Source: a virus
Virus record (IMG/VR): IMGVR_UViG_3300033146_007355
Span: 1-23,265 of that record
DNA: 23,265 bases
Reading direction: 5' to 3' (one strand)
This document shows, piece by piece, positions 1 to 22,317 of this stretch. The notes under the pieces are model-generated. The model was not told where the DNA came from. It did not search any database and worked only from the letters and a program-made list of their open reading frames with translations. A program made the position numbers and the translations under genes. Within the stretch, counting starts at the first letter, position 1. Each line of letters opens with the position of its first letter.

Positions 1-149
1 ATAGATAATATAATACATTATTTAAATTAAATAACGTTTATTTTGCTTAAATTATCTAAGTTCTTAGTTTTCAAGCACTTATAGCATAAAATAGTTTTTA
101 ACTATTCTTAAGTTTTTGTTAAGTTCTTTAAAATCAAGGAGTTATGGAT
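1..149 (+). repeat. 149-base direct repeat, copy R1
   Basis: This segment matches 19558-19706 at a constant offset with no insertion or deletion. Positions 1-70 differ at one base (T62 against G19619). Positions 109-135 are nearly identical. Positions 82-108, the central hairpin, have diverged. The left arm holds TTTATTTTGCTTAA (37-50) and a dyad CTAAG-TT-CTTAG (56-67). The repeat may extend left beyond the window edge. No open frame, transposase or target-site duplication is visible, so it is not an insertion sequence. The rest of the leader (150-247) is low-complexity AT with only the ribosome binding site of the next gene. Confidence 0.9.
90..106 (+). other. AT-rich hairpin at the centre of repeat R1
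   Basis: A perfect 7-base-pair stem, AATAGTT-TTT-AACTATT, sits at the same place in R1 as the strong GC-rich hairpin in R2. It contains little GC and is followed by CTTAAG rather than a clean T run, so it would be a weak terminator at best. Its interest is that a stem has been kept while the bases forming it changed. Confidence 0.45.
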
Positions 150-247
150 ATTGAACAAATAATCTATTTTTCTATTTCATTTTAAGAAATAAAATTATAT
201 ATTATATTATAATAAAAATAGAATTTTTTATAAAAAGGAGTGAATAT

Positions 248-1681: not shown

Positions 1682-1683
1682 AA

Positions 1684-1691
1684 AATAAATA
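1684..1691 (+). promoter_or_regulatory. Candidate T4-type late promoter octamer
   Basis: AATAAATA lies 43 bases before the ATG at 1735, directly after the polymerase stop codon. It differs by one base from the T4 late consensus TATAAATA. In such AT-rich DNA the octamer alone is weak evidence. Support comes from similar placement before other genes at 8516, 11195 and 21148. Confidence 0.42.
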
Positions 1692-1734
1692 TTTAAAATA
1701 GAAGTTATTAAAGTTAAAAAAAAAGAGGACTTAA

Positions 1735-3120: not shown

Positions 3121-3123
3121 GAA

Positions 3124-4017: not shown

Positions 4018-4026
4018 ACCGAAGCT

Positions 4027-6993
4027 TTAATCTTTATAGCCAACAAGAGCATTAAATTTTATTCTTATTATTTCATTATTTAAAGTGTAGCCGCCTCGAT
4101 CTCTTATTTTTACCATAACACCATCTCTTAATTCTTCATAATATTCATTAGCAATATCCCCGTTTTTAGTGAGCATATTATATTTTATAATTTCTTTAAA
4201 ATCATTATGAATATCTGATAATAGCATAAAGAATTCTGGTGTTCTTGTAATAGGTGCACCAGCTCTAGGTGAAGAATTCAAAGTATTAATATCTTTTAAT
4301 TTTTCAATCATTGGAGCAACTAATTCGTACATAAAAGACCTTTCAGTAAAACCGGCAGAGATTTTTTGAGATAAATCATAAAGTTTATGTGAATCTCCAT
4401 AAATAATAGAATCTGTTATTTCCAATACTTTATCACCAATTTGTGAATTATTCATAAGCTCATATTTATTAAGATATTGATATATTGAATCAAAGATATA
4501 ACTTCTAGCATAATTGGCATCACCAGCTTCTAAATATGTGTAAATATAATGATTAAGGTTCGCTAGCCTTTGTTGATCCAAATGCTGCGTTTGTCCTTTA
4601 TATAATTCTACTGTTTCTAATGGTTCTAATTTTACATTCACATTAATCACTTCATCGAAGCTTTCAATTATTTCTATAATATTTGAAAGGTAAAGACTTT
4701 TGCCAAAATCATTTCTTTCAGAGAGAAAATTATAAACTTTTGTTTTAATTTCCTTTTCAATCTCTGTTCTATTTATCAAATTCTTAATATTAATCTTACC
4801 AACCAATGCAAAATCATGTATTACCGGACTAACATAAATAGGTTGCTCAGTAACCATACTTCTAGGTTTTAAATATTTAATAAATTGTTCGATTTTGCTA
4901 GAAGTAACTAAGCCTGGGTAAATTGATTGTTCTGAAGATTTAAAAGTGCTCATCTCTTCGAATTTAAATGGATCTTCGCCAATATCATTTGATATTGCTT
5001 CATCAACATTCTCTGGCCAAATAAATTTAACTTTGATTTTAATATCATCAAATTTATGAGTTGGAATTGTATCATTTACATAATTGCCTTCAACTTTTAA
5101 CTTATAAGAAGGAGAAGGATATGTATATTGATTTTCGCCATTATCATTCCAATATTTAATATCTTTTTCTAAATTACTTGAAAGCTCTATATAACTTGTG
5201 TTAGTGATTGAGCCATTCAAACCCGTATCAATTAATCTGTTTAATTCTATTTCAAGATCATTCAAAATAGCAGCATAACTAGGATTTAAATTTTGATCAT
5301 TGAAGACTTTAGAAATACCTTTAAATGTTCTTGAATTCTCTGATGAATCTTTGGGAATAAGCTCTATTTCACATTCTATATCTAAATCTTTAATTTGATT
5401 AAGAAATTTATCAGCACCATAATACATTGTTTTTGAATCAGAAGTTTTATTTTGAAACGCAGTCATAATTGGTATTGTGCCATCAAAATTTATTTGATTA
5501 AATTTAATTTGCCCAACAATATCGCCTGAGCTTACTATATTTACATAACTTTGTCCTGGTATCTGATACGGAGAATACCCAGCATCTAGTACTTGGTCGT
5601 CTAAGTCTTTTCTTAAATCATTATTTTCATATAAATCACCCAACACAGTAAATAGCATTACGTTACTTAATTTTTTAATTGCATTAAAACTAATATTTTC
5701 TGTTTCATCTGTTAAATATTTTATATTTTCTAACTCTTCTTGTTCTCCCCAAGCAATAGCGTTTTTAACAAGAATTGGAGCAGTAAGAGATTTCATAAAA
5801 TTAAAATAATCTTTCTTTGAAACAAGTCTATCAAAAGTTTGGTAAACACCCGGAGCGTTAACCCCTATACTATCTAAGCTCTCTAGGTCTGCACCACCTG
5901 TTATATTTGTTTCAAAAAATGCTTTTAATTTAAGATCATCTTTAAGAATCCAATCAGCATCATTCACTATAGTTAGAGAATTATTGATTACGCCAGTTTC
6001 ATTTGCTTCTGCTCCATTAGTGCTGAGATACCTTACAAACAAACTTAAATCTTCAGAGTCGATTCCTGATGAAATTACTTCTCCATCACCAAATCTAAGC
6101 TCTACGCCCATTCCGTCAAAACTCTCTGCGCTTGTTCTTATAAGAACAACCTTTTTTAATTCTTTAAAATCAGTGTTTCTTTTATAATAATCGTTTAGGG
6201 CATCTGAACTAAGTAAAGAACTTCTTTCAATTGAGTAAATATTTTCTCCACTAAAAGCATCCGATTCATTTATACCAATCGCAACTACAGTAGTCTTACC
6301 GTCTATTAAATCATATTCTCCATAAAGATTAGAGAAAGTCGGATCTTCAATAAAATATTTTTGAAACTTAGGAAACTTTATTTTTCCATTTTTATCTGGA
6401 GCAACCTCTTCAGGTATTATTTTTATTATTCTAAAAACTCCCTGAAGTAAAGTGATTGGAGAAGTCTCTGTGATTTCTTCAGTAACTGAATCATTTACAA
6501 AAGTTCCCTTTTTAGGTATTGAGTTTATAATAATCTTTTCACCTCTTGCTAATTTTCTAAGAGCTTCGGCGTTTAATTCATAAGAGATTGAATCTTTTAA
6601 AATATACTTTAAACCATTATAACTAAAATCTGTGTATTGTGGTATTTCAATATTTCTTACATCATCAAAAGGAATATCACCTTCATCAGGAAAGCTTGAG
6701 TCTTTTGTCACTTCGATTCTTATATTAGCGCTAGATGGGATAGGTCTCTTAATATCATACCCTTGATTATTAGCTAATTTAACATGCCCACGATACCTTT
6801 TACCTGTATTATAGAATTGCTCTTCAACCGCTCGCTCTATGTTATAATTTGCATAATCGATAGTACCTGCCATAAGATCTAAAAGCAAAGTAGTAATATC
6901 TGCATCTGTGAAATTAGAAAACCTATCATCTGATTTAAGTTTATTCTTTAAATCTTCTAAAATATCTTGGTGTGTTATATTTGTATATTTCAT
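4027..6993 (-). CDS. 6: Baseplate wedge protein, gp6/Baseplate_J-like
   Basis: A 988-residue structural protein related to T4 gp6 and the Baseplate J family, which forms the inner ring of wedges around the baseplate hub. The N-terminal 90 residues have the family layout: a short helix, a phrase reading DADITTLLLDLMAG, a helix ending in FYNTGKRYRG, and a GYDIKRPIPSSA strand. Around residue 364 the hallmark NITGGADLESLDSIGVNAPG appears, followed by DRLVSKKDYFNFMKS, equivalent to the gp6 or gpJ segment before the C-terminal domains. T4 gp6 is 660 residues, so about 300 extra residues lie mostly C-terminal, where gp7-like or dimerisation functions could reside. It lies 21 bases downstream of the gp25-like gene in the same operon. 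The ribosome binding site (GAGAG) is weak, suggesting dependence on upstream translation. Confidence 0.85.
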   Translation of the reverse strand: MKYTNITHQDILEDLKNKLKSDDRFSNFTDADITTLLLDLMAGTIDYANYNIERAVEEQFYNTGKRYRGHVKLANNQGYDIKRPIPSSANIRIEVTKDSSFPDEGDIPFDDVRNIEIPQYTDFSYNGLKYILKDSISYELNAEALRKLARGEKIIINSIPKKGTFVNDSVTEEITETSPITLLQGVFRIIKIIPEEVAPDKNGKIKFPKFQKYFIEDPTFSNLYGEYDLIDGKTTVVAIGINESDAFSGENIYSIERSSLLSSDALNDYYKRNTDFKELKKVVLIRTSAESFDGMGVELRFGDGEVISSGIDSEDLSLFVRYLSTNGAEANETGVINNSLTIVNDADWILKDDLKLKAFFETNITGGADLESLDSIGVNAPGVYQTFDRLVSKKDYFNFMKSLTAPILVKNAIAWGEQEELENIKYLTDETENISFNAIKKLSNVMLFTVLGDLYENNDLRKDLDDQVLDAGYSPYQIPGQSYVNIVSSGDIVGQIKFNQINFDGTIPIMTAFQNKTSDSKTMYYGADKFLNQIKDLDIECEIELIPKDSSENSRTFKGISKVFNDQNLNPSYAAILNDLEIELNRLIDTGLNGSITNTSYIELSSNLEKDIKYWNDNGENQYTYPSPSYKLKVEGNYVNDTIPTHKFDDIKIKVKFIWPENVDEAISNDIGEDPFKFEEMSTFKSSEQSIYPGLVTSSKIEQFIKYLKPRSMVTEQPIYVSPVIHDFALVGKINIKNLINRTEIEKEIKTKVYNFLSERNDFGKSLYLSNIIEIIESFDEVINVNVKLEPLETVELYKGQTQHLDQQRLANLNHYIYTYLEAGDANYARSYIFDSIYQYLNKYELMNNSQIGDKVLEITDSIIYGDSHKLYDLSQKISAGFTERSFMYELVAPMIEKLKDINTLNSSPRAGAPITRTPEFFMLLSDIHNDFKEIIKYNMLTKNGDIANEYYEELRDGVMVKIRDRGGYTLNNEIIRIKFNALVGYKD

Positions 6994-7014
6994 TATTATA
7001 TTTTTCTCTCTTTT

Positions 7015-7440
7015 TTAAAAATAAAGAATATCTTTCCAGCTATGTTTAATAGCCTTTTTCTTTAACATAAATTCAATATAAATCTCTATAGAATTATCAT
7101 CAATGAAAACTGCAGTGCATTCTGAATTATTTATTTTAATTTCTTTTATTTGTTTTAGAACATCTTGAATAGCAAAATCCAATATTTTATTAGCGGTAGC
7201 CTCTGAAACATCTTCGTTAAATAAAAAGCCGTAAATTCTTGTGCCAAAAGTATTATTAAAAAAACGTTCTCCTGGTATTGTACTTAATATTGTGCTAATT
7301 CTTTGTTTTATTACATCAATGTTTTTGATTTCGCCTTTTTTATCTAATTCATAAGATAAATCATATAAATAGTCATCATTCGAAGTCGAAGTCCTATTAA
7401 AAGAGCTAATTTTAAAATCATTTTCAAATTTACTTCTCAT
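7015..7440 (-). CDS. 25: Baseplate wedge protein, gp25-like
   Basis: A 141-residue protein of the gp25/GPW lysozyme-like baseplate wedge family (T4 gp25 is 132 residues). The family core is clear: an N-terminal DLSYELDKKGEIKNI segment, then IKQRISTILSTIPGERFF, then FGTRIYGFLF, and a C-terminal strand with EIYIEFMLKK. In contractile tails this protein joins the wedge to the sheath and helps start sheath assembly. The ATG has AAGGAG about 11 bases upstream, inside the 15-base gap after the lectin-fold gene. The gp25-gp6 pair in this order is a common arrangement in myoviruses and contractile injection systems, which supports both calls. Confidence 0.92.
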   Translation of the reverse strand: MRSKFENDFKISSFNRTSTSNDDYLYDLSYELDKKGEIKNIDVIKQRISTILSTIPGERFFNNTFGTRIYGFLFNEDVSEATANKILDFAIQDVLKQIKEIKINNSECTAVFIDDNSIEIYIEFMLKKKAIKHSWKDILYF

Positions 7441-7455
7441 AAGAATTAAGCTCCT

Positions 7456-8451
7456 TTATTCTGTGATTTTTTCATCGTAAGATTGAACGTCCAATTTATA
7501 TTTAAAATTATTCCAATAAGCACTAATATCATCATCAGAGCTTGCTTCTAATTTTAACAGATATGAATCATAGTCAATACTAAGGGTGGTCACATTTGCT
7601 GTTTCACCAATACAAAAATCATGCCCTTTTATATTTGTTAAATTAAAATTAATAGGCAAACTTGCGAGCTCAAAACCATCAAAATATAATTTTAATTTAT
7701 TTGCAGGACGGTCGAAAACCAAGCTACATAGGTGCCAATCATTTCCTGTTAAATATAAGCCAGTATTAACAAGTTGGTTATTAAATGAAAACATCATTTC
7801 TGAAGTTGTTTGATTTAAATAAATATGAGCCTTTTGTTTTGTAGTTCCTCCCTGTGCAAAATCAGGGGTATATAATATATTAATATTCCTTGAATTAGAA
7901 TTATAATCATTAATTCTAAAAATCAAACTATTTGTAAAGCCTTGTAAACCTGACTGAATAAATTTATCATAATATACTTTATAATATTTATTTGCCCCAA
8001 TTGCTCTAGCAAATGAATTAGCTTTTCCATCTGCATAATTTACTAATGAAAGACCGGCAGTGTTAACAGAGCATCCAGATGTTTCGTTTTTAATAATAGT
8101 GCTAGGTGAACTTGCTCCACCATCTGTAAAATCAGTATAAAAGAACTTTACTCCATTAGTTTTAATAAAAGCATTTTTGCTAATAGGAATAGCCTTATAT
8201 GATATTTTGATATAAAAATCTGGGTTGCTATTATCCTGAACTTCAGGAATTCTAATATAAGCAAAAAGCTTTTTCTCTGGAACATTAAAATCATTAATGT
8301 ATCTTGCTAATTCATTCTCGCATGCTTCATCTGAGAAAAATCTAATATTACCACTACTTTTATTAATAGCATCTTGCCAGAATTCAGCAGGCAAATTGGC
8401 ATCATCGCCTCTTGCTTCGAAATATAATGTAAAATTTTGTACGCTAGCCAT
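7456..8451 (-). CDS. Virion protein with DUF2341-like and LamG-like domains
   Basis: A 331-residue protein, probably a baseplate or fibre accessory protein that binds a surface sugar. The N-terminal third (NIRFFSDEACENELARY, then a strand with KLFAYIRIPEV) resembles the DUF2341 module, which often precedes a lectin domain. The remainder has the jelly-roll pattern of a concanavalin A-like (LamG) fold, with the diagnostic WHLCSLVFDRPANKLKLYFDG near residues 240-262. No catalytic residues or signal peptide are visible. It is the first gene of the wedge operon, with AAGGAG just upstream of its ATG. Position before gp25 and gp6 argues for a virion component. Ligand binding is inferred from the fold alone. 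Confidence 0.82.
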   Translation of the reverse strand: MASVQNFTLYFEARGDDANLPAEFWQDAINKSSGNIRFFSDEACENELARYINDFNVPEKKLFAYIRIPEVQDNSNPDFYIKISYKAIPISKNAFIKTNGVKFFYTDFTDGGASSPSTIIKNETSGCSVNTAGLSLVNYADGKANSFARAIGANKYYKVYYDKFIQSGLQGFTNSLIFRINDYNSNSRNINILYTPDFAQGGTTKQKAHIYLNQTTSEMMFSFNNQLVNTGLYLTGNDWHLCSLVFDRPANKLKLYFDGFELASLPINFNLTNIKGHDFCIGETANVTTLSIDYDSYLLKLEASSDDDISAYWNNFKYKLDVQSYDEKITE

Positions 8452-12836: not shown

Positions 12837-13733
12837 ATGCCTAAAATAAGGAATGAAGAAGATTTAATTAAATATACCAAATTAAAACTTGGTAGCCCAA
12901 TGCATAACATTGAGGTTACCGAGGAACAATTTGTTATATTAATAGATGATAGTATTGATATGTTTAGACGTTTAAATTACGGAGAAGGCTCTATATTTTC
13001 ATACGGAGTCTTTGACGTTAAAAAAGGTAAAACGCAATATAATTTAAGGAATGTAGATGCTGGTTTTATACGAGATACTTATGGAAATAATATCCCGTCA
13101 TCAACAAATCTTGATGCTCCATCTTGGGAAGATTCAACAATTAATATTCAATCAGTTCTTGAAATAAAACTAACAGGTGGCGGCACAAGAGGAATAAATC
13201 ATTTATTTAGTCCAGATGCGATGATATTAAATAATGGCTCAGATTCTATTGTGAATAATTTATTTAATGCTCCAACAGCTTCTGACGGAGTCACTACAAA
13301 TCAGAGTGGAACTATTGGTGGAGGAGCTGGGCAGGTTTATGATTATATGATGCCGCTCACCAATTTCGTTCAATCGAGTGCTTATTTAGAAACTTTTAAT
13401 AAAATATTTAAAAGACAATATGAAGCAATTTGGAGAGCTCAGGAGGGTATTCTTAATATTTATCCTACTCCAGACCACGATGATACTGCTATGATTATTT
13501 ATTGGGCACATGAAAATAAAAGAGCTCTTTTCAACAATCCTCTTTTTAAAGAGTATTTTCTATTAGTTGTACAAAAGCAATGGGGTGCAAATCTGAAGAA
13601 GTTTACGCATACCTTAGCAGGTGGTGGAGAAATTGATGCTCAAGGGCTCTATGACTCAGCCAATGATGCTCTAGTTGAAATATTAGAACAAATACGACTT
13701 GAGTCTGAGCCACCTGGATTTTTTATAGGCTAA
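12837..13733 (+). CDS. 13: Probable neck/head-completion protein, gp13-like
   Basis: A 298-residue structural protein resembling the T4-type neck protein gp13 (309 residues), which closes the filled head and connects it to the tail. The N-terminal signature, LIKYTKLKLGSPMHNIEVT followed by EEQFVILIDDSIDMFRRLN, is typical of this connector class in T4-like phages, where a short basic helix precedes an 'LG.P...I.VT..Q....ID.A' motif. A glycine-, serine- and asparagine-rich middle (about 140-165) looks like an exposed loop. The C-terminal half has a helical region with conserved-looking WAHENKRALFNNPLFKEYF. The gene follows the preceding stop by 18 bases and ends at the two-way terminator. Confidence 0.65.
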   Translation: MPKIRNEEDLIKYTKLKLGSPMHNIEVTEEQFVILIDDSIDMFRRLNYGEGSIFSYGVFDVKKGKTQYNLRNVDAGFIRDTYGNNIPSSTNLDAPSWEDSTINIQSVLEIKLTGGGTRGINHLFSPDAMILNNGSDSIVNNLFNAPTASDGVTTNQSGTIGGGAGQVYDYMMPLTNFVQSSAYLETFNKIFKRQYEAIWRAQEGILNIYPTPDHDDTAMIIYWAHENKRALFNNPLFKEYFLLVVQKQWGANLKKFTHTLAGGGEIDAQGLYDSANDALVEILEQIRLESEPPGFFIG

Positions 13734-13750
13734 GTAAAAAATAATTTTTT

Positions 13751-14884
13751 TTAAAATAGTCCGAGAGTTTCGTTTGAACCTTTCGGACTATAATTTTTAA
13801 TAAATAACTTCGCTTCTTTATTACTTAATCCTATTATTTTTTTTAAATCTACATTTGCAGCTTTAGCAGCTTTAATAGTGAACCAATTTACTTTGGCATT
13901 CTTAAGTCCTTTTTTTAAATCTAATCTAGCAAGTCCTGAGCCCCATTTTTTTAATAAAAGATCTGTATTTATTTCACATCTTTTTGCTAGAGCAGATGCT
14001 TCTGCTGACATTTTTGATGAACCAGATTTTAGTGCAGGAGTTATGTAACTCATATAGAGTAATTGTGTTCCTTCACTAAAAACAGATTGCTGAATAAGAA
14101 AATCGTAATCATCCCAACCACTATTCGGATCGAATTTAAGATTTTTCTCTTTACATAATTTCGTATTTATATGAACTATTTGAACAGTTTGTCCGTCTCT
14201 TTTTATAAAACCTTTATTAAGAGTATCGCAAGCATATTGCGGCTTCCTAATATCTCTAAAAGTAAATTCCATATTATTCATTAAACCCGAATAAGTTAAC
14301 TTATATTTTTTAATAAGGAATTCCCAATATGTATATGCTAAGTTGAAACTCATTAGAAATTTTTTATTTCTAAAATTCTTGGTTCCGTCCGTTCCATAAC
14401 TTCCAACTGGAAGCATAATTCTTTTCACATCATCTTCAACGAAAAAAGCATCATCATAATTATTTCTTTGAGTCCATTCTAAAATATAATTTCGTTTACC
14501 ACTTAATGTAGAATATTCTTTCTGAATAACTGGGATATAAATAACTTTTACTCTTTCAATTTTTTCAAACTCTTCATAAAGCTTTTTCTGATCATCATAA
14601 GTAAATATAAAATAATCTCTATTTAACTTATGTTTTTCTGATTCTTTTAAGAGCGAGTATAAGCCTATACTGCTCTTTTTATCATATTTATGCGATAATA
14701 TACATACAGGTATAGATGTGTAGTTTTTGAGCCCTTTATTCATTAGCTCAGTTAAATGCTCTCCTACTATTTTATCTGTGTAACAATCAATTTTTAAATA
14801 TTCTTTAATTTCCTCTTCAGGCGTATTAAAAAGAAAGTCACCTTCACTGACTTTCAAAGTTTGAAAATTTACTGCTTTTTTCAT
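13751..14884 (-). CDS. GT-A-like glycosyltransferase, candidate DNA base glycosyltransferase
   Basis: A 377-residue protein. From residue 58 it follows the GT-A plan: strand SIPVCILSHKYD, a helix, strand YFIFTYDD, a helix, strand VKVIYIPVI, then GKRNYILEWT and the strand DDAFFVEDDVKRI, whose EDD (150-152) occupies the metal-binding DxD position. A later GWDDYDF phrase could contribute an acceptor or base residue. The layout resembles the TET-associated phage glycosyltransferases (TAGT) that glycosylate hydroxymethylated bases. That is a recollection of pattern, not an alignment. The 50-residue N-terminal extension and the lysine-rich C-terminal 50 residues are additional, and the latter could bind nucleic acid. 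It is the last gene of the sugar cassette, with AAGGAG before its ATG, 15 bases after the nucleotidyltransferase. Confidence 0.7.
   Translation of the reverse strand: MKKAVNFQTLKVSEGDFLFNTPEEEIKEYLKIDCYTDKIVGEHLTELMNKGLKNYTSIPVCILSHKYDKKSSIGLYSLLKESEKHKLNRDYFIFTYDDQKKLYEEFEKIERVKVIYIPVIQKEYSTLSGKRNYILEWTQRNNYDDAFFVEDDVKRIMLPVGSYGTDGTKNFRNKKFLMSFNLAYTYWEFLIKKYKLTYSGLMNNMEFTFRDIRKPQYACDTLNKGFIKRDGQTVQIVHINTKLCKEKNLKFDPNSGWDDYDFLIQQSVFSEGTQLLYMSYITPALKSGSSKMSAEASALAKRCEINTDLLLKKWGSGLARLDLKKGLKNAKVNWFTIKAAKAANVDLKKIIGLSNKEAKLFIKNYSPKGSNETLGLF
13756..13791. terminator. Bidirectional terminator between convergent operons
   Basis: A 12-base-pair stem (13756-13767 with 13780-13791, one G-U pair, core ATAGTCCGA) encloses a 12-base loop. 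On the plus strand the stem is followed by AATTTTTAA. On the minus strand it is followed by a long A/T stretch with T runs. The hairpin lies inside the last codons of the minus-strand glycosyltransferase gene (stop at 13751-13753) and just after the plus-strand neck gene stop, so one structure serves both operons. Confidence 0.72.
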
Positions 14885-14899
14885 ATTTTAAACTCTCCT

Positions 14900-16408
14900 T
14901 TAAGATTCTAACCAATATTTATTTTCATTATATTCTTCTGGTGTTCCTAAACTAAAATAATCATTAACATTTACGGTTGCTACATTATAAAATTCAGATA
15001 AATATTTAAATGCGTTATCCAAATAATATTCACCATTAGTTTTTAACTGGTGATAGAAAATATAAATTATAGCAAGTTTTAAAAGTTCTTGATTATTTAC
15101 ATAAAAACTCCCTATAAGCAATTTTTGAGTTTTTAATTCTCTATTTTCAAATGGCTTTTTAATTGAGATTTCTACTTTATCATTTTCCTCAAGTACCCAA
15201 GCAAATGAGTTTGGATTTTTTAATGAATATTCTGTAGGTTCACTAACAAAAACAATGGCATCATGTTTTTTATATTTTTCTTTAAATTCCTCATTAATAT
15301 GATTAGCAACTAAATCACAAGGAGCAATAAGCACTGAACCCTTAATATCTCTAGTGCCTTCAATATAAGAGTAAGCAGCTCCTTTTTTATTTGGCGGTAT
15401 TAATTTAGTATCTTTAAATAAGGAACTATTTTTCCAATAAAGAGAATGGTCCTTTGCTCCGATTAATCTTAATTTCTTATAATTATTATCAAATGATTTT
15501 AAAGAAGTTGTGATTATATCGTTATTATTTATTGGCAAAAATGGTTTAGGAATATTCCAACCTAAATTTAAAAATCTTTCACCTCTCCCAGCTCCTAATA
15601 AAATCAAATTATCAATTTTATCATCTATTTCAGTAGTTTCGTTTATTTTTCTCAATAAATTTAATTTAGTTTTAGCATATTCAAAATCAACAGGTATTCC
15701 GAATTGATAAAAATGCTCAACATAAGGATAACTAACCGATTTATTCTCTAAATAATTATAAGCTAGTGAAACATAAAACTCATTATTTACTTTATCATCA
15801 GCTTCAATCAGAAGGTTAAAACTATTCTTCATTATTTCAAATGTTTTAAAATAATAAACTCCAGGACTCCAATAATGATCTTCTTTATTTTTGGTTTTGA
15901 ATTTTTCTTTAACTTCAATTATTTCGTTATCTCTTTCGCAAAGAGCACAAGCATATACATTTTCAGGTTTTCCCAGATGAGGATGATACCCATAATAAGT
16001 GGGCATTATTGCATCATATTCAGATTTAGCAGCATACCTTAGGAATTTATTATAATTCCAATCCATTCCAAAATCGCAATATGAAATAATTACATCATCA
16101 TCTTTTTTAATATACTTTGAAAGTTCAGAATAAGTATCTATAATTGCTCCAACAGGTCCTAGCTTTGGTCCTTTTTCTAAAAGTATTTTATAATTTTTTA
16201 CTTTTGAGAGGGCTAGAAAAGATTTGAATTTTTCTATATTAGAATTAGATAGAATGAAATAAAATTCATCATTCTCAATATCAAAAATATTCAAAACATA
16301 ATCAATTATTCTTTTATGTTCATTAACCTTAATTAAAGGCTTATTCTCTTTATATCCTGCATCAATAAATCTTTGTCCAGAACCACTGGCCGGAATTATA
16401 ATTTTCAT
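14900..16408 (-). CDS. Tandem sugar-phosphate nucleotidyltransferase (two NTP-transferase domains)
   Basis: A 502-residue protein with two complete-looking nucleotidyltransferase domains of the sugar-1-phosphate type, which join a sugar phosphate to an NTP. Domain 1 begins MKIIIPASGSGQRF, with KPLIKV after it and the metal-binding aspartate in ISYCDFGMD. Domain 2 begins near residue 267 with IDNLILLGAGRGERF, with KPFLPI after it and APCDLVAN. Both keep the G-x-G-x-R-F and K-P signatures, so both may be active. The chosen start is ATG 16408, one base after the upstream stop, with GGAG suitably spaced. An upstream ATG at 16441 lacks such a site. In context it would activate the sugar used by the glycosyltransferase immediately downstream. 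Confidence 0.85.
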   Translation of the reverse strand: MKIIIPASGSGQRFIDAGYKENKPLIKVNEHKRIIDYVLNIFDIENDEFYFILSNSNIEKFKSFLALSKVKNYKILLEKGPKLGPVGAIIDTYSELSKYIKKDDDVIISYCDFGMDWNYNKFLRYAAKSEYDAIMPTYYGYHPHLGKPENVYACALCERDNEIIEVKEKFKTKNKEDHYWSPGVYYFKTFEIMKNSFNLLIEADDKVNNEFYVSLAYNYLENKSVSYPYVEHFYQFGIPVDFEYAKTKLNLLRKINETTEIDDKIDNLILLGAGRGERFLNLGWNIPKPFLPINNNDIITTSLKSFDNNYKKLRLIGAKDHSLYWKNSSLFKDTKLIPPNKKGAAYSYIEGTRDIKGSVLIAPCDLVANHINEEFKEKYKKHDAIVFVSEPTEYSLKNPNSFAWVLEENDKVEISIKKPFENRELKTQKLLIGSFYVNNQELLKLAIIYIFYHQLKTNGEYYLDNAFKYLSEFYNVATVNVNDYFSLGTPEEYNENKYWLES

Positions 16409-16409
16409 T

Positions 16410-17093
16410 TTACTTCTCCATTCTATATTTTTCATTTTCATCTAATTCTAATTTGATTTGCTCTTTTTCAGTAAGCTCTTTGAGTTCGATACCTTTTAAT
16501 TTGCTTAAATAGAGCAACCCTAATTTATATAAATAATTTTCATCACCATTATCAACTACTAAATCTGGAGTATAAAAAGCATCAATGTATATATAAAATT
16601 CATTAAATATTTCACTATGCAATTTTTCTATTATTTCAATTTTATCAGCATAAATGGTAACTCCATGATTTTTAAGATAAATAACTCCATAGCCACTAAG
16701 ATTTAATTTTTTAATCTCTTCACCTAATTTCTTTCCAGGCCTAATATAATCTATCGTTTTAGAAATTAAATTATTTTTATTAAAATGTTCTGAGCATAAT
16801 TCAGGCATTAAATAGATAGGATGATAGTGAAGCACATATTTTGAATTTATGTTTAAATGCATATCTATTTCCATAGATACTTTTGGTAAAACATCTTCAG
16901 ATTTCATTTTTCTATAATCAAAACAAACAAATTTTTCAGCATCTTTTTTTAAGTCAATCCCGGAGGGCTTAATCATAATATAATCATCTTGTTTTACTGA
17001 GCAATTTCCTCCTTTTGAGGGCGTATCCAAAATACCCAATAATATTTTATTTAAGCTTAAATATTCATCCCTCATTTTTGTATCATTGTACAT
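16410..17093 (-). CDS. Class II aldolase / L-ribulose-5-phosphate 4-epimerase family
   Basis: A 227-residue member of the zinc-dependent class II aldolase/epimerase family (FucA, AraD, MtnB). Family residues are in order: phosphate-binding GGNCSV (28-33) and KPSG (42-45), the catalytic glutamate in SMEIDMH (E75), zinc histidines in LHYH (H89, H91) and the third zinc histidine in KNHGV (H143). Members cleave or form ketose 1-phosphates or epimerise pentulose 5-phosphates. I cannot separate aldolase from epimerase by eye. Length fits the family. The start overlaps the upstream gene by 11 bases with AAGGAG at spacing 7, so expression is coupled. Beside a phosphoribulokinase-like kinase, a pentulose phosphate substrate is plausible. 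Confidence 0.88.
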   Translation of the reverse strand: MYNDTKMRDEYLSLNKILLGILDTPSKGGNCSVKQDDYIMIKPSGIDLKKDAEKFVCFDYRKMKSEDVLPKVSMEIDMHLNINSKYVLHYHPIYLMPELCSEHFNKNNLISKTIDYIRPGKKLGEEIKKLNLSGYGVIYLKNHGVTIYADKIEIIEKLHSEIFNEFYIYIDAFYTPDLVVDNGDENYLYKLGLLYLSKLKGIELKELTEKEQIKLELDENEKYRMEK

Positions 17094-18396
17094 ATCTTGA
17101 CTCCTTAATATTTTTAAATATTTTCTTAATATCTTTAATTAAATTATCATATTTTCCTTTTAAAATCAATTTATCATTTATTATATTAAACCCAGTAAAA
17201 CCGTTCATTATTGCCTCAAAATCTAAATCATCTGAAATAATTATTTCATACTCTTTATCTTTATTTATGTTTATGAGGAAATTGCTTAAATTCTTTTGAA
17301 TTTGAATATAATTATTAAAATCATTTTCTCTTTTATTTATTGACTCAGTGACTTTAGATAAATTAGCACCTCTGTTTTGAGTATCTCTTTTTATCTTCTG
17401 AATATCAGCAATATCGTTATTAATAAAAATTTTAATTTTGATATAATCACCTGTTACTTCATTATAGAGACTATGTAAACCGTCTAAGATTATAACATCT
17501 GTTTCTCTATTTTTTATTTCTTTATTTTTCTTGAACATTCCGTCAGAATGGTCGTAAACAGGAATGCTCACAATATCAGAAATATTATGATATAAATCTT
17601 TAATATCTAAAGATAATTTAATCAAATTATTAGCATCAGGGTTATAATGGGTAAGGGAATCCCATTTGCTTGAAGTCCTATTATATTTATGGTACCCATC
17701 TCCCTCAATTATAATAGCATTAAAAATATCTTTTATCTCTTTTGAGATTACTGATTTCCCGGCACCACTCTTTCCTGAAACACCAATTATTAATTTAGAG
17801 CAATTATATGCGTGATATTTTATTCCTAGATTGCTAAGGTCGTCAACAACGGAATCCCCAAACATAATCACTTTTGATTTATCAGGATTATTCACTAATT
17901 CTAATGCTCTATTAATTAAATTCTTATTTGGTTTTTCGATTTCATATTCTTCTGAAGTTACTATAAAATCAATCAAATCAATAAATCCTGTTTGCCTTAA
18001 TTTATTTAATTGGTTCATTAAATAGAAGTTCGTAATGGCAACTATTTTTTTATTTGATAATTTAGAATGCTTTAAAATATAGAACATATTTTTATCTACT
18101 TTCAGATTTTTAATAAAAATAGATTCGTAATTCTCAATAATAGATAGAATTTTAGATAATGAAAAACCATTATTCTCACCAAGCACCTTAAAATATAATT
18201 CTTTTTTATGGTGATTAGCTTGCAAATCTCTACACTTAATTTCGTTCTTAGCTAAATTATATTCTTTTTCAGAAATATTATATTTATCAAAAGTATTCTC
18301 TAAAGCCATTTTATGGGCTAAAGAATAATTGAAAATAGTATCATCAATATCTAAAAATATAAAATCGTAATTTTTAACTAATTTAATTAAATTCAT
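17083..18396 (-). CDS. HAD phosphatase fused to phosphoribulokinase/uridine kinase-like kinase
   Basis: A 437-residue two-domain enzyme. Residues 1 to about 195 are a HAD phosphatase of the YjjG type: FLDIDDT (nucleophile D16, acid D18), AITNFY, EIEKPN and GDSVVDD are motifs I to IV. Residues about 203 to 400 are a P-loop kinase: Walker A GKSGAGKS, EGDGYHKYNR and THYNPDAN, and further on RDTQNRG, all matching phosphoribulokinase/uridine kinase signatures. A phosphatase and a kinase in one chain suggests the product of one is the substrate of the other, as when a sugar bisphosphate is made and then trimmed to the 1-phosphate. The start is ATG 18396 with GGAG 6 bases before, sharing one base with the upstream stop (TAATG). 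An upstream TTG at 18408 is rejected. Confidence 0.88.
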   Translation of the reverse strand: MNLIKLVKNYDFIFLDIDDTIFNYSLAHKMALENTFDKYNISEKEYNLAKNEIKCRDLQANHHKKELYFKVLGENNGFSLSKILSIIENYESIFIKNLKVDKNMFYILKHSKLSNKKIVAITNFYLMNQLNKLRQTGFIDLIDFIVTSEEYEIEKPNKNLINRALELVNNPDKSKVIMFGDSVVDDLSNLGIKYHAYNCSKLIIGVSGKSGAGKSVISKEIKDIFNAIIIEGDGYHKYNRTSSKWDSLTHYNPDANNLIKLSLDIKDLYHNISDIVSIPVYDHSDGMFKKNKEIKNRETDVIILDGLHSLYNEVTGDYIKIKIFINNDIADIQKIKRDTQNRGANLSKVTESINKRENDFNNYIQIQKNLSNFLININKDKEYEIIISDDLDFEAIMNGFTGFNIINDKLILKGKYDNLIKDIKKIFKNIKESRYVQ

Positions 18397-18995
18397 TAAT
18401 TTCTCCAAAAAGATGGTAAATCAGTACATATAGATAAGTTTATAGGCTTCATAACTTTATTTACTTTTTCAACAATTATTTTTGTGAGTTCTTGACTTTC
18501 GCCATATAATTCCGGCGAAACTAAAATTACTTTTTGCTCCTGATGTGTTAAAGCTATATATAATAATTCATCATAAGGCTTTAAATTATTCCAATCACTA
18601 TAATCTAACCAAACATATTCAGGCTTCACCAAATTCATAAGTTTTGTGGTAATAATTTCATATTCTGAAATTCTTAAAATAAATTTATTAGAAATTTCAG
18701 GATTTGACTTAGAAATTCTAATAATATCTGGAATCTGTGAATCTAGAAAATAATACTTATTGCTAAATTTTTTCATAATATCGATTATTTTCTCTTCAAT
18801 CCCAGACTCTTTGGAATTAATAATAATATCAACATCAGAAGATAACTTTTTCATAAAATCAATAAACGGAACACCATTACCAGGGTCATGTGTTACAACC
18901 AAGCTATTTTCATAAAATCTAATATCAATTTCAATAGCTTTATTTTGGCCAATCTTATCTATCTGTGCTCTATGTAAAAATATTTTATCAATCAT
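18396..18995 (-). CDS. Glycerophosphodiester phosphodiesterase-like protein
   Basis: A 199-residue protein with the N-terminal active-site pattern of the GDPD/PI-PLC TIM-barrel group: LHRA (H8, R9), EIDIRF (E22, D24) and VVTHDP (H36, D37). These are the metal-binding and catalytic positions in glycerophosphodiesterases, which hydrolyse phosphodiesters to an alcohol plus a sugar or glycerol phosphate. It is shorter than typical members (about 240 or more), and the later barrel strands (KYYFLDSQ, FILRISEY, YVWLDYSD) are abbreviated. No signal peptide is present, so it acts in the cytoplasm, unlike many secreted GDPDs. It overlaps the upstream gene by 8 bases and the downstream one by 1. The substrate is unknown and may be a precursor or donor in the sugar pathway. 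Confidence 0.72.
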   Translation of the reverse strand: MIDKIFLHRAQIDKIGQNKAIEIDIRFYENSLVVTHDPGNGVPFIDFMKKLSSDVDIIINSKESGIEEKIIDIMKKFSNKYYFLDSQIPDIIRISKSNPEISNKFILRISEYEIITTKLMNLVKPEYVWLDYSDWNNLKPYDELLYIALTHQEQKVILVSPELYGESQELTKIIVEKVNKVMKPINLSICTDLPSFWRN

Positions 18996-19296
18996 TATCG
19001 TTCTCCCAATCTGCCTTCTTACGTCTGTATGTTAGAAAAATAGCGTGGAGCTGATTATCATCAGCTAATTCTTTATTTTTAACAAATTCATCATAACTTA
19101 TTGAGTCATTACGAACAAAATAATCTGAAATGAAACTGAAATTATTAATTCTGAGCTTCTCTTTAATTTTATTCTTTTTTATAAATTCATCAATAATATC
19201 TAAATTAATAATATCCTTAGAAAAGAGAAGAGCTTTGAACTCTTCATCTTTTTCTATTTTTTCAAATATTTCTTCTTTAAGAACTTTAGTTCGCAT
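18988..19296 (-). CDS. Small unknown protein
   Basis: A 102-residue charged, helical protein of no recognised family. It has no cysteine, membrane segment or catalytic motif, and ends in an acidic tail WENDND. AAAAGG precedes the ATG. The 8-base overlap with the GDPD-like gene implies translational coupling, so it belongs to the cassette's transcription unit. It may be an accessory subunit, but nothing shows what it does. Confidence 0.75.
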   Translation of the reverse strand: MRTKVLKEEIFEKIEKDEEFKALLFSKDIINLDIIDEFIKKNKIKEKLRINNFSFISDYFVRNDSISYDEFVKNKELADDNQLHAIFLTYRRKKADWENDND

Positions 19297-19314
19297 TTTT
19301 AACCTTTTCCTTTT

Positions 19315-19509
19315 TTAGAGATATTTTTTTACATAAGCTCCATTTATTGTAATAAAAACTGATTTCCTACCGTTAGGTGTTTCGGTATGTAAGTTATCCT
19401 TTGAAGATAACTGACTCTGTCTTGATTTCATTATTCTGTGCTCTTTAAGAATTTTGTTTAGATTTGTTGATCCTGTAGGTATTCCTGATTTTAATCCTGA
19501 CTTAGCCAT
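19315..19509 (-). CDS. Small basic unknown protein
   Basis: A 64-residue lysine-, serine- and threonine-rich protein with a good ribosome binding site (AAGGAG before its ATG). It has a central basic stretch (KEHRIMKSRQSQ) and ends in a strand-like KSVFITINGAYVKKYL. It is the first gene after repeat R2 on this strand, and R2 lies in its presumed leader. No family is recognised. The net positive charge and small size would suit a nucleic-acid-associated or host-interaction role, without further support. Confidence 0.62.
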   Translation of the reverse strand: MAKSGLKSGIPTGSTNLNKILKEHRIMKSRQSQLSSKDNLHTETPNGRKSVFITINGAYVKKYL

Positions 19510-19557
19510 AATTGGGCTCCTTTGTTTTGGTTATTTGATTTATTTCCCTTACCTTAT

Positions 19558-19706
19558 ATAGATAATATAATACATTATTTAAATTAAATAACGTTTATTT
19601 TGCTTAAATTATCTAAGTGCTTAGTTTAGAACAACTTAGGGCCCAAATAAATTTGAGCCCTTTTGTAAGTTTTTGCTAAGTTCTTTAAAATCAACAACTT
19701 ATGGAT
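19558..19706 (+). repeat. 149-base direct repeat, copy R2
   Basis: This is the second copy of the repeat at 1-149, same orientation, same length, offset 19557 throughout. It separates the hydroxymethylase gene (stop at 19719) from the sugar cassette (first ATG at 19509), all on the minus strand. The left arm contains TTTATTTTGCTTAA (19594-19607) and the dyad CTAAG-TG-CTTAG (19613-19624). The core hairpin is GC-rich here rather than AT-rich as in R1. On the minus strand, the arm nearest the small basic gene could hold its promoter, but no clear -35/-10 pair is seen. Confidence 0.92.
19639..19664 (+). terminator. Rho-independent terminator inside repeat R2
   Basis: A 10-pair stem with one mismatch (left arm GGGCCCAAAT, right arm ATTTGAGCCC, 2-base loop) is followed by TTTT. 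Plus-strand orientation is favoured because the minus side lacks a T run. Yet both neighbouring genes run on the minus strand, so it would stop antisense transcripts or be a passenger of the repeat. Confidence 0.6.
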
Positions 19707-19718
19707 TCTAAGTATCTT

Positions 19719-20414
19719 CTACTGTTCTGCTTCTATATATTTTTCTATGAATTTAAAATGCCGTTCATAAACATGCAAACTAGAAGTAGTCCAAATAAGT
19801 TCACCCTTTTTTAGCTTTGGATAAGTTTTAATTAAATCATAATATAATTTATTAAAAACGAAATTAGCCCAATAAACATCATTATTATATCCCATTACAG
19901 AATCTCCGCTCCTCATCAAATAATGAGAATATAATGCACCTTCTCTAATAAAGAATTGATTTGCATAGGTGCAAATAAAATCACTCATTCCATCTTTATT
20001 AAAATCTTTATGCATACTGGGTCTATTATATAGCATCACTGCTCTTCTACTAAACTCATTATTTTTAAGTTCATTTAGGGTATTTTTATATTGCTCTCCA
20101 TTTTCTTTTGAGAATATACACCAACCATAATTTGAATTTATTTCGCCATTTTTGCTAGAGACATCTTCCCATATTTTAGGAGTTTTTCCAGGAATATCTT
20201 TAACAAATAAACTTTGGCTTAAATACCATTCTATTTCTCGGTCTGCATATTCATAACTAGGTTTGCGAATAATGTAAGGTTCATCAGCAATAAAATTAGC
20301 TCCGATTATTTCAATTAATTTAACGCCGGTTTTGTCAATTACGAAATTCTCTTTTTTATATTCATCAATGAACATATTCCTAATATCTTTAACTTTTATT
20401 ATTTTATTAATCAT
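19719..20414 (-). CDS. 42: dCMP hydroxymethylase-like enzyme (thymidylate synthase fold)
   Basis: A 231-residue enzyme of the thymidylate synthase superfamily, which transfers a one-carbon unit from methylene-tetrahydrofolate to C5 of a pyrimidine nucleotide. Visible family elements are NYGWCIF, SRRAVMLYNRP, the nucleophile cysteine in DFICTY (C148), phosphate-binding R-S-x-D in MRSGDSV (R168, S169, D171), and LHVYERH (H214, Y216). The residue that reads the base is Asn in thymidylate synthases (GLPFN) and Asp in T4 dCMP hydroxymethylase. Here the aligned GYNND gives Asp179, so a cytosine substrate is predicted. Methylation rather than hydroxymethylation of dCMP cannot be excluded. It overlaps the pyrophosphatase by 8 bases and has AGAGG before its ATG. 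It is shorter than most family members (T4 gp42 has 246). Confidence 0.8.
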   Translation of the reverse strand: MINKIIKVKDIRNMFIDEYKKENFVIDKTGVKLIEIIGANFIADEPYIIRKPSYEYADREIEWYLSQSLFVKDIPGKTPKIWEDVSSKNGEINSNYGWCIFSKENGEQYKNTLNELKNNEFSRRAVMLYNRPSMHKDFNKDGMSDFICTYANQFFIREGALYSHYLMRSGDSVMGYNNDVYWANFVFNKLYYDLIKTYPKLKKGELIWTTSSLHVYERHFKFIEKYIEAEQ

Positions 20415-20871
20415 TTTGTGCTGCCTCTATTAAATCTAAAAAGTATGGCGCCTTCCATTCTGGTGGTTTTATGCAATCAAATGTAGTGCCTCGTTTTGTT
20501 TTTCTTTCTGCTCTTACTTTACTCATATTAGCGGTTTGAATTCTATCCCAGGCTTCTTCAGCCAGAAGTTTATTATTAACTTTTTTAGAAAAGCCAAATA
20601 AATGAACATTTCCCATAGCTACATAAACTAAGTCGAGCAAGCCGTCTATAAATTCTGATTCTGAGATTTTACTTTCATCTCCATCTACAATTATTCCATT
20701 TTTTATTTTAAAGCCTGCAGATTCCACAGTTTCTGTAAGTTCTTCTAATAGGAAATTAAGCCTCATTTTCAGAATTTCTTTATTAGCTTTCTTAAGGTTT
20801 GGTTTATGATCAAATTCATCAGGAAAGAATTTGTTCTGAAATTTAATTACATCTTCTAGTGTTTTGAGCAT
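20407..20871 (-). CDS. MazG-like nucleoside triphosphate pyrophosphatase
   Basis: A 154-residue all-alpha NTP pyrophosphohydrolase of the MazG/HisE-like group. The metal-binding signature is EELTE (43-47) in one helix and EFIDGLLDLVYV (E73, D76, D80) in the next, followed by the phrase AWDRIQTANMSKV and a C-terminal FDCIKPPEWKAP that is typical of phage members. Such enzymes convert dNTPs to dNMPs plus pyrophosphate. Paired with a dCMP-type hydroxymethylase it most likely hydrolyses dCTP, doing the job of T4 gp56 from an unrelated fold: it supplies dCMP and keeps unmodified dCTP out of phage DNA. It is the first gene of the minus-strand operon, with AGGAG upstream and a TATAAATA octamer 53 bases before its ATG. 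Confidence 0.86.
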   Translation of the reverse strand: MLKTLEDVIKFQNKFFPDEFDHKPNLKKANKEILKMRLNFLLEELTETVESAGFKIKNGIIVDGDESKISESEFIDGLLDLVYVAMGNVHLFGFSKKVNNKLLAEEAWDRIQTANMSKVRAERKTKRGTTFDCIKPPEWKAPYFLDLIEAAQND

Positions 20872-20924
20872 ATATTTTTCTCCTCTTTTAAATTAAAATT
20901 TTTCTATAATATAATATATAATTT

Positions 20925-20932
20925 TATTTATA
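20925..20932 (-). promoter_or_regulatory. T4-type late promoter octamer for the nucleotide-modification operon
   Basis: On the minus strand this reads TATAAATA, exact consensus, 53 bases before the pyrophosphatase ATG. If used, the modification genes are transcribed late, or also late, which would be unusual because T4 expresses the equivalents early. Chance occurrence is possible in AT-rich DNA. Confidence 0.4.
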
Positions 20933-21025
20933 GAAATGAAACAATTATTTTAACTTTTTTAATCTTTTATTTAAGCATCTAATAGGGCTTTTAAGGACTT
21001 TGTCTTAAACTAATGGTAATACTCA

Positions 21026-21039
21026 TTTATTTTGCTTAA
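21026..21039 (+). repeat. 14-base word shared with R1 and R2
   Basis: TTTATTTTGCTTAA occurs exactly at 37-50, 19594-19607 and here, each time in an intergenic region. It may be the functional core of the repeat (promoter or protein-binding site) kept where the rest has decayed, or an independent regulatory word. Confidence 0.55.
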
Positions 21040-21147
21040 GTTGCTTCTACTTATCCAGATTTCATTCTTAGGGCAAATTAGAAGAACTCTTATATACCCA
21101 TTTTATAATATATAATTTTACCTCTAAAAATAAAAGGATTTTTTAAA

Positions 21148-21155
21148 AATAAATA
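21148..21155 (+). promoter_or_regulatory. Candidate T4-type late promoter octamer
   Basis: AATAAATA lies 43 bases before the ATG at 21199, the same spacing as at 1684 and close to that at 8516. It would drive the baseplate gene and the fibre-like gene that follows. Confidence 0.45.
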
Positions 21156-21198
21156 TCTATAATTGAACAAAACAGAATAGATAGGAAAAATACATAAT

Positions 21199-22317
21199 AT
21201 GGCACAAAACGTAGAATATAATTCCGATAAAAAGTTGAATCTGGAGACATTGGTTCCTGAGCAGACTATTCATACCGATTATATGCGATTAATAAAAATG
21301 TATGAAGATTATTTAAATAATATGTATAATGACGATAATATTGGAAATAATGTGTCAAATTATTTAGTGGTTGAAAAAGTTCCATATTTCGATAATATAG
21401 ATACAGAGATGGATATTCAAAACACTACCGCTAAAGTCGAAAGATGGAAAAATAAAAGTATTAATGATTATGCTAATGATAATATTAAGAATGTTTCTAA
21501 AAACGTAACATTCGATTATATTAAATCACATATTCCTAGTGGAGCTCAATTATATGTTCAAAAACCTAAAATTGCTGAAACAATAAATTCAAATGGAATC
21601 TCTTTATTAGAAAAAATCTATAGGATTGCAGACGTTCACGATCCCTGGCTTACTCCTTTTAATTTACTTCAAGAGCACGCTGATTTTATGGGTTACGATA
21701 ATAATTTAAGTTTGGTAAATTTAGAACGAGATTCTGATTATGAAACTGAGCAGCAATCAAGATTTATGATTGAGAGCTTACCTCATTGGTATAAAATCAA
21801 AACAACAGAAGACAGTATTAAATTATTATTATTTACTTTCGGCTTATATGGTGGTCTTTTAAATTATTATACAAAAGATTATTCAACAAATAGAGAAAAC
21901 TGGAGTAGTGCTAAAAATTACTTTAATGAAAAAACAGGATATAATCTTACTGATTTAACAGATATTCCTGATGATTATTTTCCAACTCCTCATTTCGCTA
22001 TTTGGTATGATATGGGCGTTGTTGGCGGTAACACATTAAATAATGATGAAACAAGGAAAACAGTAGTAAGAGCAATAAATGCGATAAAACCAGTGAATAA
22101 AATTTTTAGTGGAATAATTTCTATTTATCAAGCTGATCCTGCAAAAATAAGAATTCAAACTGCCCAGATTAGCAAGTGGAGATTAAAAGCCAATTCTTTA
22201 TTATATGGAACTACAAATACCCAAGGTGATACAGGATTTTTTGATTCCATAGATAATGAATATGTGACAAATACGACAAGTTATAGTTATGCTGTGAGTA
22301 ATAGCATTCTGACTTAA
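21199..22317 (+). CDS. Baseplate protein, tail protein I-like
   Basis: A 372-residue structural protein. Its middle and C-terminal part resemble the P2 gpI/T4 gp7-type wedge domain: DPWLTPFNLLQEHADFMGYD, then SRFMIESLPHWYKIKTTEDS with a following hydrophobic helix and glycines (LLLFTFGLYGG), then a strand HFAIWYDMG and TRKTVVRAINAIKPVNK. That succession (entry phrase, an 'H..KGT' type turn, a strand, and a helix ending in KP) is the tail protein I plan, in which the protein links the wedge to the fibres. The first 130 residues are polar and asparagine-rich. A fibre-like gene follows 31 bases later, which supports a fibre-attachment role. Similarity is by pattern only. Confidence 0.6.
   Translation: MAQNVEYNSDKKLNLETLVPEQTIHTDYMRLIKMYEDYLNNMYNDDNIGNNVSNYLVVEKVPYFDNIDTEMDIQNTTAKVERWKNKSINDYANDNIKNVSKNVTFDYIKSHIPSGAQLYVQKPKIAETINSNGISLLEKIYRIADVHDPWLTPFNLLQEHADFMGYDNNLSLVNLERDSDYETEQQSRFMIESLPHWYKIKTTEDSIKLLLFTFGLYGGLLNYYTKDYSTNRENWSSAKNYFNEKTGYNLTDLTDIPDDYFPTPHFAIWYDMGVVGGNTLNNDETRKTVVRAINAIKPVNKIFSGIISIYQADPAKIRIQTAQISKWRLKANSLLYGTTNTQGDTGFFDSIDNEYVTNTTSYSYAVSNSILT

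Follow-up and report, generated by a model that had tools for sequence, protein, structure and literature searches.

A block of genes on the minus strand of a viral DNA fragment (positions 13751-20871 of the 23,265-base window, the whole stretch of DNA analysed, which is a complete IMG/VR fragment of 28% GC) is likely, with a probability of roughly 0.78, to constitute a self-contained cytosine hypermodification unit, in which hydroxymethyl-deoxycytidine would be combined with a phage-made and probably pentose-derived sugar. The enzyme families, active-site residues, gene order and recurrence of this cassette are established directly; the identity of the sugar and the role of DNA as its acceptor are inferred, with no chemistry to support them. 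The window additionally encodes a T4 gp15-type tail sheath stabiliser, a gp25-like baseplate protein and a family B polymerase, the last of these being ~27% identical to known T4-like counterparts compared with 54% for the window hydroxymethylase, and its source is likely to be a deep-branching T4-like phage.

In order of transcription, the cassette codes for a MazG protein, a dCMP hydroxymethylase, two small ORFs, a GDPD-fold protein, a HAD-phosphoribulokinase (PRK) fusion, a class II aldolase, a tandem nucleotidyltransferase and a GT-A-like transferase, all on the minus strand and mostly overlapping or abutting. The exception is a gap of 209 bases located 3' of the hydroxymethylase gene, which together with the two small ORFs parts that gene from the sugar genes in the window phage. 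The gap contains a hairpin (19638-19661, minus strand; detected by pattern scan alone) that could serve as a terminator or attenuator, with the hydroxymethylase upstream of it and other genes downstream. The sugar genes may therefore have their own promoter in the window, and it is possible that the hydroxymethylase and the sugar block form separate transcription units there. No function could be assigned to either small ORF: that of 64 aa (19315-19509) gave no Pfam or PHROG match and that of 102 aa (18988-19296) no convincing one, and neither had a counterpart in the relative carried on the 104-kb G400 contig.

The enzyme encoded at 19719-20414 exhibited a thymidylate-synthase fold (Pfam, E = 1.2e-18) and matched T4 dCMP hydroxymethylase (1b49) with an E value of 7e-72, as against ~3e-11 for thymidylate synthases; its identity to the T-even gp42 enzymes was 52-55%, compared with 26% to RB69p048. 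Cys148 is the catalytic residue of such enzymes and Asp179 that of the cytosine type, while Glu60 likewise has a recognised role. All three (C148, D179 and E60) were retained in the hydroxymethylases of the window and of two related contigs, L065 and L014, whereas RB69p048 lacks E60. Closeness to the T-even enzymes, retention of these residues and the distance of an RB69 enzyme devoid of E60 therefore indicate that the product is most likely hydroxymethyl-dCMP and not 5-hydroxy-dCMP. The assignment as a T4 gp42-type dCMP hydroxymethylase is firm and very likely to be correct, the function being one predicted from sequence, and an RB69-type 5-hydroxy-dCMP synthase was ruled out by the 26% identity and the E60 difference. 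The preceding gene (20407-20871) codes for a MazG-fold nucleotide pyrophosphohydrolase (Pfam PRA-PH, E = 6.9e-5; phrog_671, E = 1.5e-19) to which the closest phage proteins are ~40% identical. Its proposed role as a dCTPase, removing dCTP and supplying dCMP, is inferred; a MazG gene is also present downstream of the cassette in the relatives L010, L011 and L014.

The product of the gene at 18396-18995 gave no Pfam match, and was characterised as a GDPD-fold phosphodiesterase-like protein from an AlphaFold model (pLDDT 89.8) built from 50 homologues, the predicted fold matching solved GDPDs with a Z of up to 16.3 and an rmsd of 2.8 over 188 residues. Residues H8, R9, E22, D24, H36, N60 and K62 were invariant in those homologues. 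Of the GDPD catalytic set, H8, E22, D24, H36 and K62 are kept, and the invariant Asn60 occupies the position where typical GDPDs have a metal-binding Glu. A WbbM profile match of the same gene (E = 0.0099 over 40 residues) was discarded because the fold is clearly that of a GDPD.

The adjoining fusion (17083-18396, with an ATG start at 18396) combines a HAD phosphatase domain (Pfam HAD_2, E = 3.1e-13) with a phosphoribulokinase domain (PRK, E = 2.5e-26), and is 47-50% identical to the fusions of L065, L011, L014 and Helicobacter. The PRK domain lies nearest to cyanobacterial phosphoribulokinases (E = 2e-30). The motifs D-x2-H-x3-R and R-D-x3-R are those of the PRK-type ribulose-5-phosphate site, and the corresponding residues (D237, H240, R244, R341, D342 and R346) were invariant in the phage and Helicobacter homologues. 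Membership of the phosphoribulokinase family is shown by the sequence; generation of ribulose bisphosphate (RuBP) from ribulose 5-phosphate is an inferred activity. The HAD domain retains its catalytic aspartates and matched YjjG-type nucleotidases and a halophile RuBP 5-phosphatase about equally. In halophiles, the non-carboxylating pentose bisphosphate pathway deploys a HAD RuBP phosphatase followed by a FucA-family ribulose-1-phosphate (Ru1P) aldolase (PMC9700705); unlike the window system, that pathway is catabolic, and the version described has no phosphoribulokinase, nucleotidyltransferase or transferase.

The class II aldolase/epimerase-family enzyme (16410-17093; Pfam, E = 3.6e-11; matching FucA, 2opi) has an intact metal site, the three Zn histidines of the FucA type and the catalytic acidic residue being present, and E75, H89, H91 and H143 plus N30, S44 and G45 were invariant in phages and bacteria alike; its matches to the FucA and ribulose-1-phosphate aldolase families were weak. 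The tandem sugar-phosphate nucleotidyltransferase (14900-16408; Pfam NTP_transferase, E = 5e-13) consists of two halves that align with each other (E = 2e-10), each bearing a GxGxRF...KP signature whose residues were kept in both halves throughout an alignment of ten diverse proteins, and is 45-50% identical to its phage and Campylobacter/Helicobacter relatives. For both the fusion and the nucleotidyltransferase, the likely starts (18396 and 16408, respectively) were preferred to the first TTG/ATG. Assignment of the pathway to a pentose is an inference of moderate confidence, its basis being the kinship of the PRK domain with phosphoribulokinases.

The last gene (13751-14884) codes for a protein of 377 aa with EDD and GWDDYD motifs, GT-A-like and proposed to be the DNA transferase, which is 47-54% identical to its counterparts in L065, L011 and L014. 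Its resemblance to TAGT was no more than weak (Pfam TAGT, E = 0.0016; phrog_842, E = 5.7e-4) and, because the TAGT (PF20691) scores of 18.8 and 19.9 bits fell short of the curated cut-off of 27.5, the protein was not assigned to that family. A profile comparison with the T-even TAGTs by hhalign, a check of the kind proposed in advance for this protein, was not significant with four sequences on each side. The AlphaFold model was poor (pLDDT 58.7), and since it is weak in residues 197-296 the resultant fold matches to GT-A enzymes and TAGT-domain proteins (BFVD, E = 5e-4 to 1e-3) are merely suggestive. The transferase was not found in 50,697 phage records or 72,556 plasmid records, nor in 397 genomes from the class to which the Campylobacter and Helicobacter carriers of the sugar genes belong, a genome search for which the positive control worked. 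Within the data searched, the family is so far confined to a few viral DNA fragments, and DNA as its acceptor is inferred.

Most of the gene calls made in a first-pass annotation survived this scrutiny. Its genes were said to lie mostly overlapping on one strand, which held, with the 209-base gap and the two small ORFs now added. The claims of an NTP pyrophosphatase (MazG/PRA-PH matches), a thymidylate-synthase-fold enzyme with the dCMP-type Asp (the 1b49 match and conserved D179), and a phosphatase-kinase fusion, class II aldolase and tandem nucleotidyltransferase (Pfam matches and self-aligning halves) all held, as did that of a GDPD-like protein, by structure model and not by Pfam. That of an EDD-type GT-A enzyme held only in part: the motif is present, and the GT-A/TAGT likeness is weak.

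Profile scans demonstrated that the succession GDPD, HAD-PRK, aldolase, nucleotidyltransferase and transferase occurs in identical order in another four IMG/VR contigs, which stand for three phages (L010 and L065, which are the same phage; L011; and L014), with 35-54% identity to the window across the block. Alignment-based scans were necessary to detect these relatives: nucleotide similarity and single-protein scans returned no transferase relatives from phages or IMG/VR, and no nucleotidyltransferase or HAD-PRK relatives from IMG/VR. The transferase and the HAD-PRK fusion, each taken as the query of its own independent scan, led to precisely these four viral contigs, and in all relatives the nucleotidyltransferase is followed directly by the transferase. 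The hydroxymethylase gene immediately precedes the GDPD gene in L065/L010 and in L014, while L011 is truncated upstream such that the hydroxymethylase side is not visible. In L010/L065 and L014 the cassette is flanked upstream by a thymidylate-kinase-like gene, and downstream by a C5-cytosine-methylase-family gene, MazG, a clamp loader and more replication genes, the downstream part of this flank being present in L011 also; a T4-type DNA polymerase lies near the cassette in L010. The setting in the relatives is hence a nucleotide-metabolism and replication region and not one of virion genes, whereas in the window the cassette is situated amid tail and baseplate genes.

When the window was compared with the 104-kb G400 contig that carries L014, the common cassette was 32-54% identical (MazG 32%) and otherwise only a polymerase tail (28%) was shared; the G400 contig is partial, and missing structural matches do not prove absence. 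That the cassette is shared with little else therefore identifies it as a unit exchanged between distant phages, and the retention together of hydroxymethylase, sugar pathway and transferase across such phages argues for one DNA-directed function. Repetition of the gene order in four other viral contigs exceeds chance, and there is little doubt that the cassette exists as a unit and is mobile.

The four sugar genes (GDPD, HAD-PRK, aldolase and tandem nucleotidyltransferase) were also located in the same order in Helicobacter sp. 11-8110, Campylobacter volucris and six more genomes of the class, where they are 37-53% identical to those of the window and the HAD-PRK fusion is likewise present. 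These bacterial loci contain no phage transferase and no adjacent hydroxymethylase; several have kpsC/kpsS-like genes downstream plus other sugar genes, as judged by reading the sequences, and a capsule-locus setting is claimed solely for those whose context was read. The capsule (CPS) locus of C. coli 76339 includes a protein listed as HAD/phosphoribulokinase (PMC3928612). In a tree, the nucleotidyltransferases of the phages and of the Campylobacter/Helicobacter class formed one fully supported clade. A wider operon, in which the PRK domain is fused to a membrane protein and accompanied by HAD, aldolase, tandem nucleotidyltransferase and GDPD genes, was recorded in 49 of 80 cellular loci, all but two of which (47/49) included a GtrB-like transferase. 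A partial block of nucleotidyltransferase and aldolase occurs in cyanophage glycan clusters; these were rejected as examples of the same system, only those two genes being common and the cyanophages concerned giving no TAGT match and no match to the phrog_160 TS family. The likely history is one in which a sugar pathway of capsule type came to be linked, in phages, with a phage hydroxymethylase and the phage-only transferase, although which way the genes moved is not proven.

The proposed mechanism comprises three steps. In the first, MazG is inferred to lower dCTP and provide dCMP, which the T4-type hydroxymethylase would convert to 5-hydroxymethyl-dCMP for incorporation into phage DNA. In the second, which is inferred, the four imported enzymes would generate an activated sugar: the PRK domain would phosphorylate C1 of a pentulose 5-phosphate, ribulose 5-phosphate being the most likely; the fused HAD domain would remove the 5-phosphate; the aldolase-family enzyme would reshape the ketose 1-phosphate by epimerisation or by a retro-aldol/aldol sequence; and the tandem nucleotidyltransferase would couple the sugar phosphate to a nucleotide, with the GDPD-fold protein in some unspecified accessory role. 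The same order of kinase, phosphatase and nucleotidyltransferase is used in ADP-heptose synthesis. In the third, also inferred, the phage-only GT-A-like enzyme would move the sugar onto hydroxymethylcytosine in DNA, the likely purpose being to shield it from restriction and other DNA-targeting defences. The phosphate-transposing kinase/phosphatase step, the nucleotide activation and the transfer to hydroxymethylcytosine are thus all inferences, and the exact donor is the chief unexplained chemistry of the cassette: a ketose 1-phosphate is not anomeric, and therefore either the PRK substrates are non-classical, or the carbon skeleton is altered at the aldolase step, or the group transferred is a phospho-sugar.

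Weighing against this reading are the sub-cut-off transferase score, the non-significant hhalign result and the poor model of that protein, the capsule-type block in bacteria, the partial block in glycan clusters of cyanophages that gave no TS-family match, the tail-gene setting in the window, the uncertain donor and the possibly separate transcription units. The first-pass interpretation, a sugar on hydroxymethylcytosine, is nevertheless supported, with DNA transfer and sugar identity still inferred and the sugar pathway itself of capsule type. One condition set for its refutation was that the cassette should occur mainly in phages without a hydroxymethylase and the transferase group with capsule or O-antigen enzymes. 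The search for the gene set in other phages that it had proposed yielded the four contigs described above, in which a hydroxymethylase adjoins the block wherever the upstream side is visible; as to the transferase, none was found in the 397 genomes from the class whose members carry the block of capsule type.

Of the alternatives, the best supported is that the sugar is destined for a virion glycan or the host envelope (tail fibres or host surface), and that the hydroxymethylase is a neighbour by chance. In its favour are the presence of the four-gene block in genomes of the Campylobacter/Helicobacter class, with kps-like surroundings in the loci whose context was read, and the HAD/PRK protein of the C. 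coli CPS locus (PMC3928612), together with the related genes in GtrB-containing operons, the cyanophage clusters with nucleotidyltransferase and aldolase, and the tail-gene neighbourhood of the window cassette. Against it stand the hydroxymethylase directly before the block in every relative with a visible upstream side, conservation of the unit between phages otherwise sharing little, the failure to find the transferase in the 397 class genomes, the lack of any visible GtrB/GtrA or kps gene within the window, and the replication-region setting in the relatives; on balance, this explanation is considered unlikely. A much less probable alternative is that the DNA bears plain hydroxymethylcytosine or glucose from host UDP-glucose, the sugar block being a pentose-diverting metabolism unlinked to DNA. 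The PRK, RuBP-phosphatase-like and Ru1P-aldolase-like enzymes could indeed together make up a catabolic sequence ending in DHAP and glycolaldehyde (PMC9700705), but conservation of the tandem nucleotidyltransferase and the presence of a dedicated transferase would then have no explanation, and the cellular homologues reside in polysaccharide-type loci and not in catabolic operons. Equally improbable is a non-glycoside, whereby the phage would synthesise a pentulose or polyol phosphate linked to a nucleotide and attach a phospho-sugar to hydroxymethylcytosine: the PRK/HAD pair, if acting as in halophiles, would leave a ketose with its phosphate on C1, a non-anomeric position, and the GDPD-fold protein, conserved in phages and bacteria, would gain a role, but the transferase is GT-A-like and the bacterial versions accompany GtrB-like family 2 transferases, enzymes which use anomeric nucleotide sugars.

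Should the preferred reading of a DNA hypermodification cassette be true, it would add to the RB69 module a second, apparently non-homologous route by which a phage builds its own activated sugar for DNA, would introduce a new family of DNA transferases, and would connect the sugar chemistry of capsules, in the form of an exchangeable module, with the armouring of DNA. The cassette predicts a definite modified nucleoside, and may disclose the product of a widespread and apparently undescribed bacterial surface-sugar operon. A bolder reading, possible but no more than that, is that a sugar new to DNA (a ketopentose or a pentulose unit derived from ribulose 5-phosphate) is placed on hydroxymethylcytosine by a new DNA glycosyltransferase family and is the same sugar as that of the Campylobacter/Helicobacter capsule-type loci, in which case a single activated sugar, as yet undescribed, would be common to the virus and the capsule. 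The first-pass annotation knew of no description of this gene set as a DNA-modification pathway, and the literature searched likewise gave nothing; novelty with respect to Mahler 2025 and Iyer 2013 was outside that scope.

Like T4 and the T-even phages (gp42, agt, bgt, TAGT), whose dCMP hydroxymethylases are 52-55% identical to that of the window and belong to one family with it, the window has a transferase gene near the hydroxymethylase, with dCTP removal proposed in the window; however, T4 uses host UDP-glucose while the window phage carries a sugar pathway, and the window transferase belongs to a separate family of marginal similarity to TAGT. The Campylobacter/Helicobacter capsule-type loci have the four sugar genes in order, but flanked by capsule-type genes and without hydroxymethylase or transferase. 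Like the window, the RB69/Mosigvirus module (ORF003c, 48c, 51c-55c) places phage genes for a sugar-phosphate isomerase and for kinase-like and nucleotidyltransferase-like proteins next to that of a TS-family cytosine enzyme (PMC6024577, PMC13390438). Blastp comparison of RB69 003c, 47c, 48c, 50c, 52c and 53c with the window revealed no clear homologue except the TS-family enzyme (26%), and the arabinose module was rejected as a homologue in the absence of a significant match for ORF003c, 52c or 53c, the SIS isomerase ORF055c being outside the comparison. The initial premise that RB69 carries arabinosyl-hydroxymethylcytosine needs updating: the current description of RB69-type DNA is of arabinosyl-5-hydroxycytosine, which depends on a divergent 5-hydroxy-dCMP synthase (PMC13390438), an enzyme reported as such and without E60, unlike the T4-type enzyme of the window. 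For the Shewanella phage Thanatos, a pentose on cytosine, a phage pentose pyrophosphorylase and a TS-family enzyme have been reported (PMC12838424); it has a homologue of the RB69-type NTase-kinase protein, and a PRK-HAD fusion, aldolase and tandem NTase were not reported among its candidate genes. By analogy, the logic of the window cassette would be T4-like in hydroxymethylation followed by transfer and RB69/Thanatos-like in deploying a phage-made activated pentose, with sugar enzymes non-homologous to those of RB69 that were compared.

Other IMG/VR loci sharing the cassette order, unlike the window, coded for a member of the C5-cytosine DNA methylase family (PF00145; L065:12507-13697, L011:5256-6461, L014:13261-14511) between their transferase and MazG genes. 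The PF00145 matches (E 1.7e-17 for the L065/L010 copy, two loci of the same phage; 3.2e-15 for L014) were accompanied by retained PC, EN and RxR-type motifs, and the protein may possibly serve as an additional modification enzyme. A thymidylate-kinase-like gene directly upstream of the hydroxymethylase (L065:6156-6710; L014:6170-6721), assigned to phrog_761 by testing the L010 copy, could conceivably code for a hydroxymethyl-dCMP kinase.

Within window 13600-21300, eight terminator-like hairpins were observed vs 1.8 expected from shuffles, several lying within cassette genes. Adjoining the baseplate genes, a Laminin_G_3/concanavalin-like lectin domain protein (window 7456-8451; slightly under the Pfam cut-off) is a tentative candidate host-binding protein.

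A widespread bacterial operon (L075-L151; e.g. L082:678-7793) coded for a membrane protein fused to a phosphoribulokinase domain, together with HAD, aldolase and tandem nucleotidyltransferase, frequently with GtrA-like, GtrB-like and GDPD genes; no description of its product was found. Cyanophage Bellamy gp206 (L002:7782-8939) carries a phosphatase annotation; the protein combines a nucleotidyltransferase and a ribose-5-phosphate isomerase B domain in one fusion.

In L011, an insertion containing intein-like (C-terminal HNC) and GIY-YIG-like sequence appeared to split the clamp-loader gene (L011:8266-10711).
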